Positions 2,830 through 8,426 of a DNA stretch of 8,426 bases are shown piece after piece; the stretch's first letter is position 1, and every line of letters begins with the position of its first letter. The notes beneath the pieces were generated by a model. It saw only the letters and a list, made by a program, of their open reading frames with translations, had not been told where the DNA came from and searched no databases. Origin of the DNA: Bacteroidales bacterium (GTDB lineage Bacteria > Bacteroidota > Bacteroidia > Bacteroidales > UBA932); contig JAHDRO010000291.1 in the NCBI GenBank assembly GCA_018433265.1, forward strand, positions 1 through 8,426. The letters are read 5' to 3'. The position numbers and the translations under genes are program-made.

Positions 2830-2831
2830 TT

Positions 2832-2969
2832 GCTATTTTTATCGTATGCTTACCAATATTCAGAAAAAAGACATACGGGACACCAATTGCACAACAGACT
2901 GCATTTTGGTCTGCAGTTAAAAGAAATCTGGGAGCTTCAACAATTGATGTTACTAAACCCAAAAATTAA
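2832..2969 (+). pseudogene. C-terminal remnant of an unidentified gene
   Basis: Just after truA, one frame (opened by a TAG at 2817-2819) runs without a stop to the TAA at 2967-2969 and reads like real protein. A hydrophobic stretch (AIFIVCLPIF) is followed by a basic segment containing RKKTYGTPIAQQTAFW and ending ...VTKPKN. Codon use (AAA, ACA, GCA, GGA, ATT) matches the neighbouring genes. There is no ATG, GTG or TTG in this frame, and truA occupies the space where the rest of the gene should be. The stop lies only 4 bp before a strong terminator. My reading is the 3' end of a gene whose front was deleted, left behind with its terminator. I do not recognise the family. Alternatives are chance openness, or a small protein with a non-standard start. 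Confidence 0.35.
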
Positions 2970-2973
2970 CCCT

Positions 2974-3012
2974 GCGAGGGTGCCCGAGCAACTCTGGACA
3001 CCCTCGCTTTTT
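2974..3012 (+). terminator. Intrinsic terminator after truA
   Basis: A perfect 9-bp GC-rich stem, GCGAGGGTG (2974-2982) with CACCCTCGC (2999-3007), encloses a 16-nt loop and is followed directly by TTTTT. It ends the truA unit and separates it from the SMR/antiporter unit, about 145 nt after the truA stop. Confidence 0.9.
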
Positions 3013-3039
3013 ATAAAATGTATATAAACTTAATTTTCC

Positions 3040-4624: not shown

Positions 4625-4632
4625 CATATTTG
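4625..4632 (+). promoter_or_regulatory. Candidate -7 element for the aromatic operon
   Basis: CATATTTG followed by CG is one mismatch from TAnnTTTG, with a predicted start near 4639, about 14 nt before the leader-peptide ATG. A TTTTTG ends at 4600, 24 nt upstream, which is a little farther than the usual -33 spacing. Its position just ahead of the attenuator is what makes it plausible. Confidence 0.4.
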
Positions 4633-4652
4633 CGATTGAAAATACGACTGAA

Positions 4653-4739
4653 ATGAATAACAGTTTCATATATACCTCATTCTGGTTTTTTTATTTCTAT
4701 TTTAGAAATAAATCGGGGCTTATATATGATGTAAACTGA
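4653..4739 (+). CDS. Aromatic leader peptide of the attenuator
   Basis: A 28-codon reading frame, ATG to TGA, ahead of pheA. It contains 6 Phe, 4 Tyr and 1 Trp, and residues 10-17 are FWFFYFYF: eight aromatic codons in a row (4680-4703). Such a run by chance in a non-coding leader is very unlikely, and it matches the principle of the pheL, pheM and trpL leader peptides, which sense charged tRNA by ribosome stalling. The stop (4737-4739) falls in the loop of the antiterminator. A ribosome reaching it would cover the antiterminator 5' arm, while one stalled on the aromatic run would not. The single Trp codon fits an operon that includes DAHP synthase, needed for all three aromatic amino acids. 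The peptide itself probably has no function. Seen: the codons and positions. Inferred: the sensing role. Confidence 0.8.
   Translation: MNNSFIYTSFWFFYFYFRNKSGLIYDVN
4690..4712 (+). other. AU-rich hairpin over the aromatic codons
   Basis: TTTATTTCT (4690-4698) and AGAAATAAA (4704-4712) form a perfect 9-bp stem with a 5-nt loop ATTTT. It covers codons 13-20 of the leader peptide, in the position of the 1:2 (pause) hairpin of classical attenuators. It stops just short of the antiterminator arm at 4714, so it probably acts as a pause signal that keeps polymerase and ribosome in step rather than as a direct competitor. Confidence 0.6.
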
Positions 4740-4760
4740 CAATACTAACTTATGTATATA

Positions 4761-4793
4761 GACCCCGCCGAACAAGCGGGGTTTTTTGTTTTT
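4761..4793 (+). terminator. Intrinsic terminator of the attenuator
   Basis: CCCCGC (4763-4768) pairs with GCGGGG (4776-4781) around a 7-nt loop, CGAACAA, followed by TTTTTTGTTTTT. It lies after the leader-peptide stop and before the pheA ATG at 4803, with no gene end nearby for it to terminate. It is therefore a premature terminator controlling the operon downstream. Confidence 0.9.
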
Positions 4794-4802
4794 ATACCAA
4801 CC

Positions 4803-5702
4803 ATGTTAAGAGATAACAGAAAAAATTACGAATCCAAAAATGTAGCCATTCAGGGAATAAAGGGCTCTTTTCACGAAGTTGCAGCCTGCAGGTATTTTTC
4901 ACAATGCCAACTTGACATTATTGAATGTGAGACATTTGAAGAAATAATATCTTCACTCTGCAATAGAAAAGCAAACTATGGGGTAATGGCAATTGAAAAC
5001 ACCGTTGCCGGAACAATACTCAGAAATTACGAACTTATAAGAGATAATCCGGTTAAAATAATAGGAGAAGAATATCTGAGGATTAAACAAAATCTACTCT
5101 CTTTACCAGGGCAGCAGCTGAAAGACATAAATCAAGTACACTCTCACCATATGGCAATCAGTCAGTGTCGCGAATTTTTTAAACAGTATCCATGGATTAA
5201 ACTTGTTGAGTCTGTAGACACTGCTCAAAGTGCCAAGGAAATCAGATTGAATAACTTAAATGGCTTTGGAGCTATTGCAGGAGAGATGGCTGCTGAAATA
5301 TATCAGCTTGAGGTTTTGGCATCAGGAATTGAGACCAACAAAAAAAACTATACAAGATTTCTGATAATTGCCAATAGTGATCTGAATGAAAAAAACACTG
5401 ATAATAACGTGGGCTTTTATAAAACCACTAAAGCATCCCTTTGTTTCAGCCTTCCTCATTCAAAAGGAAGTCTGGCTGGCGTTTTGACAATTCTTGCAGA
5501 TAATGACATGAATCTTACAAAAATTCAGAGCTTGCCAATAATTGGAAAGGAATTTCAATACTTCTTCATAGTTGACGTAACATTTGAAAATTATTCTAAT
5601 TATCAGAAGGGATTAAATGTGATTTCAAAACAGGTAATAGACCTTCAGATACTGGGAGAATATACTCATTCCATAGAATCATTGGAAAACATTCATAATT
5701 AA
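4803..5702 (+). CDS. pheA: Prephenate dehydratase with ACT domain
   Basis: A 299-residue enzyme converting prephenate to phenylpyruvate, the committed step to phenylalanine. The chorismate mutase domain of the proteobacterial P-protein is absent. Motifs from this start: AIQGIKGSFHE (15-25), the conserved GVMAIENTVAGT (60-71), HHMAISQC (115-122), and the catalytic TRF (184-186). An ACT regulatory domain follows from about 209 to 283. The usual Phe-binding ACT motif ESRP is replaced by QSLP (242-245), which I recall also in Bacteroides relatives, so feedback by Phe may differ. The frame is open back to an ATG at 4752, but those 17 codons are the attenuator terminator (giving DPAEQAGFF). The ATG at 4803, right after the U-tract, fits the family N-terminus much better. 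First gene of the operon; the aminotransferase starts 5 bp after its stop. Confidence 0.93.
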   Translation: MLRDNRKNYESKNVAIQGIKGSFHEVAACRYFSQCQLDIIECETFEEIISSLCNRKANYGVMAIENTVAGTILRNYELIRDNPVKIIGEEYLRIKQNLLSLPGQQLKDINQVHSHHMAISQCREFFKQYPWIKLVESVDTAQSAKEIRLNNLNGFGAIAGEMAAEIYQLEVLASGIETNKKNYTRFLIIANSDLNEKNTDNNVGFYKTTKASLCFSLPHSKGSLAGVLTILADNDMNLTKIQSLPIIGKEFQYFFIVDVTFENYSNYQKGLNVISKQVIDLQILGEYTHSIESLENIHN

Positions 5703-5707
5703 GCGAT

Positions 5708-6868
5708 ATGATAACACCTGCACAAAGAACTTCACTGGTCAATGAATATTATTTCTCTATTAAACTTAAGGAGATCGACCAAATGAACAGAGACGGGAAA
5801 AAAGTGATAAATCTTGGAATTGGCAGTCCTGACATGGCTGCCCCTCACGAAGCAATTGAAGCAATGGTCAATTCTGCAAGAACTTATGGGACTAACGGAT
5901 ATCAGAGTTACATCGGGATTCCTGAATTGCGAAATGCATTTTCAAAATGGTATAAACATTTTTTCAGAGTTGAACTAGATCCTGAAAAAGAGATCCTCCC
6001 ACTTATGGGATCCAAAGAAGGTATCATGCATGTGTCGATGGCTTTTTTAAACCCCGGAGATAAAGTTTTAGTACCAAATCCTGGATACCCGACTTATAGC
6101 TCTATATCTCTAATGGTGGGTGCAGAGATTATACCATACAATCTTAAATACCAAAACTCTTGGGAGCCTGATTTTCAGGAGCTTGAAAATATAGAATTAA
6201 GCGGAGTGAAGTTGATGTGGGTTAACTATCCGAATATGCCAACAGGTAAACCGGCAAGTTATGAACTATATAAAAAACTTATCGATTTTGGTAAAAGACA
6301 TGGAATTCTCATTTGTAATGACAATCCTTATAGTTTTATCCTCAATGACTATCCCATAAGTATTCTTGAAATTGAAGGAGCAAAAGAGACTGCCATTGAG
6401 CTTAATTCCATGAGCAAATCACACAATATGGCCGGATTTCGCATTGGAATGGTTGCAGGAGAAAGTAGGCTGATAAGTTACATTCTTCAAGTAAAAAGCA
6501 ATATGGACAGTGGGATGTACAAACCTTTGCAAATAGCTGCTGCACAAGCACTGTCATGCAACGAAGATTGGTTCAATAGAATAAACGACGAGTACAAAAG
6601 AAGGAGAGAGCTCGTATGGCAAATATTTGAGGCAACCGGATCAACCTATGACAAGCGACAGAGTGGACTGTTTGTCTGGGCAAAAATTCCACAGGATTAC
6701 GAAAACTCTTCCAACTTTTCCAATAAATATCTATATGAAAGTAGCGTATTCATTGCTCCTGGTTTTATTTTCGGAACAAATGGGGAAGGATTTGCCAGAA
6801 TATCCCTATGCTGCAATATAGAGACTCTTAAAGAAGCTCTCAACAGAATCAAAAAAATTAGAAATTGA
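5708..6868 (+). CDS. PLP-dependent aminotransferase (class I/II), probably aromatic
   Basis: A 386-residue fold-type I aminotransferase. The PLP lysine is Lys237 in NSMSKSHNMAGFRIG, with the cofactor residues Asp205 and Tyr208 in NDNPYSF and the substrate-carboxylate arginine Arg364 in FARISLC. The tight N-terminal loop has GIGSPDMAAP (37-46). The usual NPTG motif reads NMPTG (176-180), so Met177 sits where most relatives have the PLP-contacting Asn. Lying between pheA and tyrA with 5-6 bp spacing, it most likely transaminates phenylpyruvate and 4-hydroxyphenylpyruvate to Phe and Tyr. It could instead act on prephenate to give arogenate; the sequence does not decide. By family alone it might be annotated as aspartate or LL-diaminopimelate aminotransferase, but the operon context argues for aromatic substrates. 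Confidence 0.9.
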   Translation: MITPAQRTSLVNEYYFSIKLKEIDQMNRDGKKVINLGIGSPDMAAPHEAIEAMVNSARTYGTNGYQSYIGIPELRNAFSKWYKHFFRVELDPEKEILPLMGSKEGIMHVSMAFLNPGDKVLVPNPGYPTYSSISLMVGAEIIPYNLKYQNSWEPDFQELENIELSGVKLMWVNYPNMPTGKPASYELYKKLIDFGKRHGILICNDNPYSFILNDYPISILEIEGAKETAIELNSMSKSHNMAGFRIGMVAGESRLISYILQVKSNMDSGMYKPLQIAAAQALSCNEDWFNRINDEYKRRRELVWQIFEATGSTYDKRQSGLFVWAKIPQDYENSSNFSNKYLYESSVFIAPGFIFGTNGEGFARISLCCNIETLKEALNRIKKIRN

Positions 6869-6874
6869 TTTAAC

Positions 6875-7729
6875 ATGACAGTAACAATTATAGGCATCGG
6901 TCTGATAGGAGGTTCAGCTGCAATAGATCTCAGAAAAAGAGGTTTTGCTGCAACTATATTGGGAATTGACAATGACAAGATAAATGCCAACGCAGCATTA
7001 TCATTAGGACTGGTAGACGAAATATGTACTCTGGAAGAGAGTGTAAAAAGAAGTAATCTCGTCATAATTTCAACCCCTGCCAATGCAACTCTCACTCTGC
7101 TCCCCAAGATTCTTGATATAGCCGGAAACAAAACGGTTATTACAGACGTGAGTTCAACTAAATTTGAGATATGTAAAAAAGTAAAAAATCATGTTAACCG
7201 AGGACGTTTCGTTGCTTCTCATCCAATGGCAGGAACTGAGTTTTCAGGCCCATGGGCTGCAACTTCAGGTCTGTTTGACGGAAAAGGAGCAATTTTATGT
7301 GATACAGACCAATCTGACAAAGATGCACTTTACATAATTCAAAAAATGTATGAAACTCTTAATATGAGAATCATATACATGAAAAGCTCCAGTCACGACA
7401 CACACGCTGCCTATGTCTCTCATATATCTCACATAAGTTCCTTTGCTCTTGCACTGACAGTACTTGAAAAGGAACAGGATGAAAAAAATATTTTTGACAT
7501 GGCCAGCGGCGGTTTCGATTCGACTGTCAGACTTGCTAAAAGCTCTTCCGATATGTGGGTGCCTGTCTTCCTGCAAAACAAAAAAAACGTACTTACAGTT
7601 CTCAGAACATATATTGATAAACTGAGAGAGTTCGAGACTCTAATCGAAACAGAAGAGGGTGAAAAAATTAAATCTCTTATAGAGAGTTCAAATAAAATAA
7701 AAAAAGTATTGAATTGTAATAAAAACTGA
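6875..7729 (+). CDS. tyrA: Prephenate dehydrogenase
   Basis: A 284-residue TyrA that oxidatively decarboxylates prephenate to 4-hydroxyphenylpyruvate, the branch to tyrosine. The Rossmann dinucleotide motif is GIGLIGGS (7-14), with Asp32 at the end of beta-2, which suggests NAD+ rather than NADP+. The catalytic histidine region is SHPMAGTEFSGP (115-126, His116). The helical domain carries HAAYVSHISH (177-186) and TVRLAKSSSDMW (217-228). There is no C-terminal ACT domain and no fused chorismate mutase, so Tyr feedback through an ACT domain is not expected. Use of arogenate instead of prephenate cannot be excluded. It starts 6 bp after the aminotransferase stop and ends 1 bp before the DAHP synthase ATG. 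Confidence 0.93.
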   Translation: MTVTIIGIGLIGGSAAIDLRKRGFAATILGIDNDKINANAALSLGLVDEICTLEESVKRSNLVIISTPANATLTLLPKILDIAGNKTVITDVSSTKFEICKKVKNHVNRGRFVASHPMAGTEFSGPWAATSGLFDGKGAILCDTDQSDKDALYIIQKMYETLNMRIIYMKSSSHDTHAAYVSHISHISSFALALTVLEKEQDEKNIFDMASGGFDSTVRLAKSSSDMWVPVFLQNKKNVLTVLRTYIDKLREFETLIETEEGEKIKSLIESSNKIKKVLNCNKN

Positions 7730-7730
7730 T

Positions 7731-8426
7731 ATGGAAAAGAGCAATAATTCACCTTTTGAAGGATGGGGGCTTAAAAAGTTAGAACGACCCCTTGTCATTG
7801 CCGGTCCCTGCAGTGCAGAATCTGAGGAACAGGTTGTGGAAACTGCCACACAACTCAAAACGTTGGGTATTGAGGTTTTCCGTGCAGGAATATGGAAGCC
7901 ACGTACCAGACCGAATCAATTTGAAGGAGTAGGAATTTCCGGTCTCGAATGGATGAAAAGAGTCCAAAAAGAGGTTGGAATGAAAGTATCTACTGAAGTT
8001 GGAAATGTTAAACACGTATACGACTCATTGAGACACGGAGTTGATATAATCTGGATTGGAGCCAGAACGTCTGCAGATCCATTTGCCATGCAAGAGATTG
8101 CAGATGCCCTAAGGGGAGTGGACATTCCAGTCCTTGTCAAAAACCCTGTTAATCCAGATCTTAACTTATGGATTGGAGCAATAGAGAGAATTTCAGCAGC
8201 AGGGATTCGCAGAGTTGGAGCAATACATAGAGGTTTTTCAACTTACGACACAACACGATACAGGAATATTCCTCAATGGCAAGTACCTATCGAACTAAAG
8301 CAGAAAATGCCTGAGATACCTATGATTTGTGATCCAAGTCATATGGGCGGCAAAAGAGAGTTAATTCAGGAACTCTCACAAAAAGCCCTTGATTTGAATT
8401 ATGACGGTTTGATGATAGAATCTCAC
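7731..8426 (+). CDS. DAHP synthase (type I-beta), probably fused to chorismate mutase; 3' end cut
   Basis: 232 codons are visible up to the window end, with no stop. The protein condenses phosphoenolpyruvate and erythrose 4-phosphate, the first step of the shikimate pathway. Motifs: AGPCSAES (24-31, metal ligand Cys27), WKPRTRP (55-61), STEVGN (87-92), WIGARTSADPFAMQ (108-121), VKNPVNPDLNLWIGA (136-150), HRGFS (166-170), CDPSHMGG (200-207, His204) and GLMIESH (226-232, Glu230). The last metal-ligand aspartate should lie about 11 residues beyond the cut. The short N-terminus has no ferredoxin-like or ACT regulatory domain. Bacteroidetes homologues at this place are usually about 350 residues, with a C-terminal AroQ-type chorismate mutase. 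That would also supply the step missing from this operon, but that half is outside the window. The start is 1 bp after tyrA, in the same transcript. Confidence 0.92.
   Translation, partial: MEKSNNSPFEGWGLKKLERPLVIAGPCSAESEEQVVETATQLKTLGIEVFRAGIWKPRTRPNQFEGVGISGLEWMKRVQKEVGMKVSTEVGNVKHVYDSLRHGVDIIWIGARTSADPFAMQEIADALRGVDIPVLVKNPVNPDLNLWIGAIERISAAGIRRVGAIHRGFSTYDTTRYRNIPQWQVPIELKQKMPEIPMICDPSHMGGKRELIQELSQKALDLNYDGLMIESH

Follow-up and report, generated by a model that had tools for sequence, protein, structure and literature searches.

Mixed Phe/Tyr control codons in a predicted four-segment, ribosome-mediated attenuator upstream of an aromatic amino acid operon in Bacteroidales

Here, we analyse a stretch of 8,426 nucleotides from a Bacteroidales bacterium (the window) and propose that its aromatic operon is very probably governed by transcription attenuation of the classical kind, mediated by the ribosome through four RNA segments and a mixture of Phe and Tyr control codons. 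The region upstream of the operon combines a short, translated-looking ORF that carries codons for the operon's product, a terminator between this leader and the first gene, a predicted antiterminator that excludes the terminator, and a predicted trp-type protector that excludes the antiterminator. We refer to the protector, antiterminator and terminator helices by the segments that form them, as 1:2, 2:3 and 3:4, respectively (Table 1).

Between an antiporter-like gene and pheA, the window contains a 28-codon ORF and one U-tailed terminator (4760-4784). The genes that follow encode, consecutively, prephenate dehydratase, an aminotransferase, prephenate dehydrogenase and DAHP synthase, and by their Pfam matches these are enzymes of Phe and Tyr synthesis. 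The nearest named relatives of the window's pheA protein are Bacteroidales, in line with the Bacteroidota character of the window. We place the pheA start codon presumptively at 4803, and an ATG at 4752, inside segment 3, extends the same open frame upstream. Two database proteins (P0002 and P0003, 316 aa) start at the equivalent of 4752 and their 17 added residues are unchanged, which may reflect conservation of the RNA combined with a misplaced start, while the next best relatives examined (P0004-P0007) are called without this extension. Among the 68 non-redundant, leader-bearing loci of the best 80 described below, all three further proteins were matched downstream of pheA in 32 and DAHP synthase in 59, in loci that end at various distances and with thresholds that may miss distant copies.

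Table 1. Features of the attenuator and its surroundings in the window.
Feature	Position	Strand	Basis
Upstream gene, Na/H exchanger family (antiporter-like)	ends 4585		Pfam
Promoter-like -7 box, 7/8 to TAnnTTTG	4625..4632	+	by eye
Leader ORF, 28 codons, MNNSFIYTSFWFFYFYFRNKSGLIYDVN	4653..4739	+	ORF list; counterparts in relatives
Segment 1: 5' strand of protector helix	4661..4678	+	folding; 1:2 duplex shuffle p = 0.025
Control codons FWFFYFYF (Phe, Trp, Tyr)	4680..4703	+	leader ORF translation
AU hairpin, tip of 1:2 hairpin	4690..4712	+	4690-4699 with 4703-4712, -5.6 kcal/mol
Segment 2: antiterminator 5' strand (4714-4728) and protector 3' strand (4715-4738)	4714..4738	+	folding, shuffles
Segment 3: antiterminator 3' strand; 4760-4768 = terminator 5' arm	4751..4768	+	folding, shuffles
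Segment 4: terminator 3' arm 4776-4784, into U tract 4782-4787	4776..4787	+	folding
Prephenate dehydratase, pheA-like, weak ACT-domain match	4803..5702	+	Pfam PDT 4.8e-55; ACT under cut-off
Class I/II aminotransferase	5708..6868	+	Pfam
Prephenate dehydrogenase, tyrA-like	6875..7729	+	Pfam
DAHP synthase, runs off window	7731..8426	+	Pfam

Elsewhere in the window, the ORF at 3064-3342 matches the small multidrug resistance transporters in Pfam; by eye, a homopolymer close to its 3' end seems to interrupt the frame and to leave a family-like tail in another one. After truA, an inverted repeat (2974-3012; GCGAGGGTG at 2974-2982 with CACCCTCGC at 2999-3007) is followed by a T tract and, judged by eye, is probably the terminator of truA; a 65-aa ORF (2830-3027) that overlaps it looks spurious.

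At the centre of the proposed switch lies the CCCCG at 4763-4767, which has two possible partners, CGGGG at 4777-4781 or CGGGG at 4714-4718. Pairing with the former gives a terminator of 9 bp (4760-4768 with 4776-4784, -14.8 kcal/mol) that runs into the U tract, and pairing with the latter gives an antiterminator (4714-4728 with 4751-4767) of -15.1 kcal/mol when folded alone and -17.7 kcal/mol as a duplex, a value that 200 dinucleotide shuffles of its 5' zone never equalled. The two helices share the CCCCG arm. The leader as a whole (4640-4800) folds to -36.6 kcal/mol (z = -3.83, 0/200 shuffles as good). A first-pass annotation of this DNA had already proposed the alternation of CCCCG between its two partners, and this holds up: the bases are where it put them, and both helices are predicted. 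It had also drawn a nine-position AU/GU extension of the antiterminator between 4720-4728 and 4753-4761. Such a helix is indeed predicted, but not in that register, for which the six pairs examined give probabilities of only about 0.02-0.08; the preferred one runs through C4719-G4761, U4720-A4760, a bulged U4759, and U4721-A4758 to G4728-U4751 (0.82-0.92 each).

The minimum-energy fold of 4640-4800 contains, in addition, a long helix (4661-4678/4715-4738) that encloses the AU hairpin and is built from the pairings 4661-4665/4734-4738, 4666-4674/4721-4729 and 4675-4678/4715-4718. Its CCUC at 4675-4678 mimics the CCCC of the terminator, which gives segment 2 a choice of two partners, like its counterpart in the trp attenuator. 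The AU hairpin had been noticed before and does exist, but it had been taken as separate from the antiterminator, unlike the situation in trp, and as a sign of a simplified two-state attenuator. Neither idea is supported: the hairpin is the tip of the 1:2 hairpin, and the 1:2 helix, which had been missed, is one whose complementarity the relatives keep. Since this outer helix reuses antiterminator bases, three helices compete as in trp, in a four-segment design. We then followed the fold at equilibrium for each RNA length, a path that does not represent kinetics. With the nascent end at 4725-4760, 1:2 leads (about 6 expected pairs at 4725 and about 14 at 4738-4760); at 4765, 1:2 and 2:3 are mixed; at 4768-4779, with no ribosome, 2:3 dominates; and from 4781 onwards 1:2 is found together with 3:4. 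Because 1:2 leads first and the final state without a ribosome is 1:2 plus 3:4, the default of this leader would be off.

To describe the leader in relatives, we used a rule that asks for an ORF with at least five F/Y/W in nine codons and for a U-tailed hairpin 30-150 nt further downstream. The first set comprised 142 sources, scanned with slightly relaxed terminator rules: the best 80 of 558 confirmed loci (species genomes, 19-protein alignment), 61 further loci (L081-L141) that were the best matches in G001-G006, 295 genomes of the order and 99 of the family, and the window. The order and family sampled are those of 'Bacteroidales bacterium CF' (L002/G002). Leader and terminator were found in 126 of the 142, window and repeats included (72/80, 53/61 and the window itself); among the 16 misses, 3 have short upstream DNA and 13 are without run plus terminator. 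As 15 of the 53 leaders from L081-L141 exactly duplicate a leader of L001-L080, the 142 sources are not independent, and a redundancy filter kept 106 of the 126 leaders, and 69 of 76 in a second set. The latter consisted of 94 of 96 further order-search genomes with a match (G160, a fragment, and G184, with 29% identity, were left out), where the leader was present in 76 of the 90 loci with enough upstream DNA; the 18 misses comprise 4 with short upstream DNA and 14 without a leader, 6 of which have an aromatic-run ORF without a terminator as the rule defines it. In the order sample, 126 of the 295 genomes have a pheA match at all, and after adding 30 first-set loci, none of them among the first-set misses, 106 of 120 carry the leader.

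The same rule matched only 5 of 2190 other 495-nt stretches of these loci, which are mostly coding DNA, and, in a fairer control, 1 of 166 stretches upstream of other long ORFs. This single match, on the minus strand of L054, may be due to chance or represent another attenuator. Most titles among the best 80 loci are Bacteroidales or unclassified Bacteroidetes, and the leader is also present in L010 (Crocinitomicaceae), L075 (Saprospiraceae) and L078 (Lewinella), while the rule detected none in the loci titled Flavobacteriales (L013), Lentisphaerae (L019) and FCB group (L045). By eye, two of the 13 inspected misses (L037 and L047) look like leaders overlooked by the terminator rule. In L013, L028, L122 and L125, coding DNA appears by eye to precede pheA directly, without a leader, and the attenuator may therefore be absent where pheA has a different gene neighbourhood.

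The aromatic run of the non-redundant leaders contains Phe in all 106 and Tyr in 104 (69/69 and 64/69 in the second set), and Trp occurs in the leader peptide of 26 of the 106. In the window the leader ORF ends with a UGA at 4737-4739, which falls in the antiterminator loop, as the first reading had it. Bacteroidota rarely use Shine-Dalgarno sequences, and the consensus of their -7 promoter box is TAnnTTTG. Of 105 leaders, 69 have an exact copy of this box within the 100 nt upstream of their start, compared with 7.2 expected from mononucleotide shuffles; the window's own box has one mismatch and is therefore outside these 69. Transcription would probably start a few bases past 4632.

Evidence that the helices are maintained comes from the leaders taken together. 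Tested one by one against shuffles, 2:3 reaches p <= 0.05 in 79 of the 106 leaders and 1:2 in 33, the window included, with about 5 expected. An alignment of 8 close leaders keeps the core pairs of 2:3 in 40/40 cells (56/500 shuffles reach the score) and those of 1:2 in 95% of cells (132/500 shuffles). Two of its sequences carry a double change in the 2:3 core, from G-C to A-U (columns 70/128). The covariation search that the first-pass annotation had suggested is thus too weak alone among close relatives, and we used a comparison with non-cognate pairing instead. Across the 106 leaders, cognate segments pair far better than non-cognate ones for 2:3 (z -17.3, 0/5000 permutations as good) and for 1:2 (z -14.0, 0/5000), with z -28.6 for the terminator arms as a positive control. 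The 1:3 control pairing shows no cognate excess in these 106 leaders (z -0.7, 1196/5000), and a small bias for 1:4 (z -2.0, 142/5000) indicates that composition contributes a little. The second set of 69 leaders behaves alike (2:3 z -16.8, 1:2 z -9.2, 1:3 z -0.3, 1:4 z -2.9 with 14/5000). Moreover, the aromatic run pairs with segment 2 at z -11.4, so the protector often extends into the run.

How would this leader work? The segments, their energies, the helix favoured at each RNA length and the conservation were computed, and from them we infer that the ribosome stalls, that amino acid supply is the signal and that transcription reads through. A ribosome would translate the leader and, when Phe-tRNA or Tyr-tRNA (perhaps also Trp-tRNA) runs short, stall within the control codons. 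Its position would then be over segment 1 or in the gap before segment 2, and its front edge would come to rest where segment 2 begins or close by. This would leave segment 2 free to pair with segment 3, and RNA polymerase would read through. With adequate charging, the ribosome would reach the UGA and cover the loop as well as the AU portion of segment 2; the GGGG core could then be held by upstream RNA, 3:4 would form and transcription would terminate.

The spacing of the segments is consistent with a ribosome footprint. Segment 2 starts a median of 13 nt past the first base of the last aromatic codon in the 106 leaders, and within 8-18 nt of it in 94 of them, compared with 31% for shuffled zones. 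We modelled a stall by masking the RNA through 12 nt beginning at that base, footprint sizes being assumed. In this model, 2:3 reaches at least 0.5 before the terminator 3' arm is made in 99 of the 106 leaders, compared with 53 without a ribosome and 11 with a ribosome at the stop codon. The earlier proposal that a stalled ribosome leaves the antiterminator free is supported by these figures, and its counterpart, that a ribosome finishing the peptide blocks this helix, applies to most leaders but not fully to the one in the window, whose GC core stays uncovered. Indeed, in the 11 exceptions, which include the window, the stop codon is at least 24 nt past the start of segment 2, and so the core is outside the modelled footprint. 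The fold with 4722-4751 masked, put forward in the first reading as a check, behaves in the same way: the GGGG core is not masked and still pairs with CCCC as long as the terminator lacks its 3' arm (0.973 at end 4770), after which the terminator wins (1.0).

The stop codon lies before segment 2 in 42 of the 106 leaders, 0-18 nt into it in 44, and at least 19 nt past its start in 20. We asked whether leaders with late stops have stronger protectors, and found no such correlation (p12 against stop position, Spearman -0.03, p 0.72). We propose that in leaders whose GC core is left uncovered this core may be dealt with by segment 1 or by steric exclusion. In addition, the complete leader favours the terminator at equilibrium even when the ribosome is stalled (0.91 in the window; 0.91-0.999 over four stall positions), so the switch must be kinetic. 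In trp attenuation it is accepted that timing decides. With a wider mask (to 4715) and a stall at the last codon, Phe17, the antiterminator core drops to 0.54, and stalls at this codon may therefore not open the operon.

Other readings of the same region have to be weighed against this one. An attenuator without a protector, in which only 2:3 and 3:4 compete and masking by the ribosome is the sole switch, gains from two of our results, namely that 2:3 outcompetes 1:2 at ends 4768-4779, so that 1:2 cannot alone stop antitermination at equilibrium, and that 1:2 is individually significant in just a third or so of the leaders (33/106). However, it leaves unexplained the 14 or so expected 1:2 pairs at ends 4738-4760, which are found again in the final state, and a cognate 1:2 complementarity that is far above the non-cognate in two sets. 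Masking alone would also be incomplete, since a terminating ribosome leaves the GC core of the window's leader uncovered. The folding and the pairing controls lead us to reject this two-state model, which we consider improbable.

It could also be argued that the hairpin is the ordinary terminator of the upstream gene and that the aromatic ORF is there by chance; after all, a U-tailed hairpin is what one finds between an antiporter-like gene and pheA, and aromatic-run ORFs alone are common in the controls (243/2190 stretches, and 25/166 before other long ORFs). What makes this explanation very improbable is the combination of run and terminator, found in 126/142 and 76/90 loci as opposed to 5/2190 and 1/166 controls, together with the fixed spacing and the promoter box, and it was rejected on the basis of this frequency in relatives. 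We give hardly more than a token chance to a control that is partly translational, with leader translation coupled to that of pheA or with the start at 4752 in use. The frame open from this ATG and the two proteins called from it (P0002 and P0003) would fit, but P0004-P0007 are called without the extension, and because 4752 lies inside segment 3, that product would be made only from read-through RNA. We thus retain the four-segment attenuator as the preferred reading.

It is tempting to speculate further, in a reading that we regard as evenly balanced, that much of Bacteroidota shares one attenuator family for aromatic synthesis, unnamed in Rfam, in which interleaved Phe and Tyr codons act as an OR gate, with a late-stop subclass, including the window, whose core must be held by segment 1. 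In this joint reading, a shortage of either charged tRNA would open the whole branch, and in the late-stop subclass the terminating ribosome could not reach the antiterminator core. In our opinion, the breadth of this attenuator and its mixed Phe/Tyr sensor are its interesting parts. The full four-segment anatomy is described here for a large Bacteroidota set, Bacteroidales for the most part; evidence obtained without alignment indicates that its helices co-evolve, and the segment spacing fits a ribosome footprint. This provides testable predictions for Bacteroidales, about the amino acids sensed and the transcripts cut short, as well as a basis for an RNA family lacking in the Rfam release searched. 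If correct, it would show that translation-transcription coupling matters in Bacteroidota.

No Rfam family, the T-box riboswitch included, was found at the gathering threshold in the window, and in the loci of 20 relatives the only match was a tRNA gene, with no leader family; a T-box or another Rfam element was therefore discarded as a candidate. The scores of Trp_leader (RF00513) and Phe_leader (RF01859) were 20.9 and 18.3 bits, against gathering thresholds of 41 and 55, respectively. In a permissive scan, GcvB (E 0.01) ranked above Trp_leader (E 0.052), both far below gathering, and the GcvB match was taken as spurious.

Related observations exist in the same phylum. In Flavobacterium psychrophilum, amino acid operons have been proposed to be under leader-peptide attenuation, and pheA has a 5' element, without Rfam hits, that other genera of Flavobacteriaceae share (PMC9723704). 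This element shares phylum and gene name with the leader described here, a likeness by description, since the passages of that account on pheA concern Flavobacteriaceae only and give no helices, codons or mechanism. In Bacteroides thetaiotaomicron, short ORFs in long 5' UTRs are reminiscent of attenuation leader peptides (PMC7366714) and in this respect resemble the leader described here; the word 'phenylalanine' is absent from the main text of that paper, and its passages on these short ORFs mention no aromatic operon leader. The main text of PMC2965389 is without Bacteroides, Flavobacter, Porphyromonas, Cytophaga, pheA and phenylalanine. A high incidence of attenuation is described in Actinobacteria and Proteobacteria by PMC4833913, whose references include Lopatovskaya et al. 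2010. Among the open-access titles and beginnings of abstracts listed, we found no description of this leader family across Bacteroidales. The 2010 study may cover some Bacteroidota.

Classical attenuation has been described mainly in Proteobacteria and Actinobacteria, and the E. coli trp and pheA attenuators consist of a leader ORF, the helices 1:2, 2:3 and 3:4, and a U-tailed terminator. While each of these two responds to one amino acid, the leader described here has mixed Phe/Tyr, plus Trp, codons. It also differs from them in having a Bacteroidota-type promoter box and no Rfam match at the gathering level, and in the position of the stop codon, which 64 of the 106 leaders place at or beyond the first base of segment 2. 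In the remaining respects it resembles them, with a control-codon leader ORF, three helices, a U-tailed terminator and a biosynthetic operon downstream.
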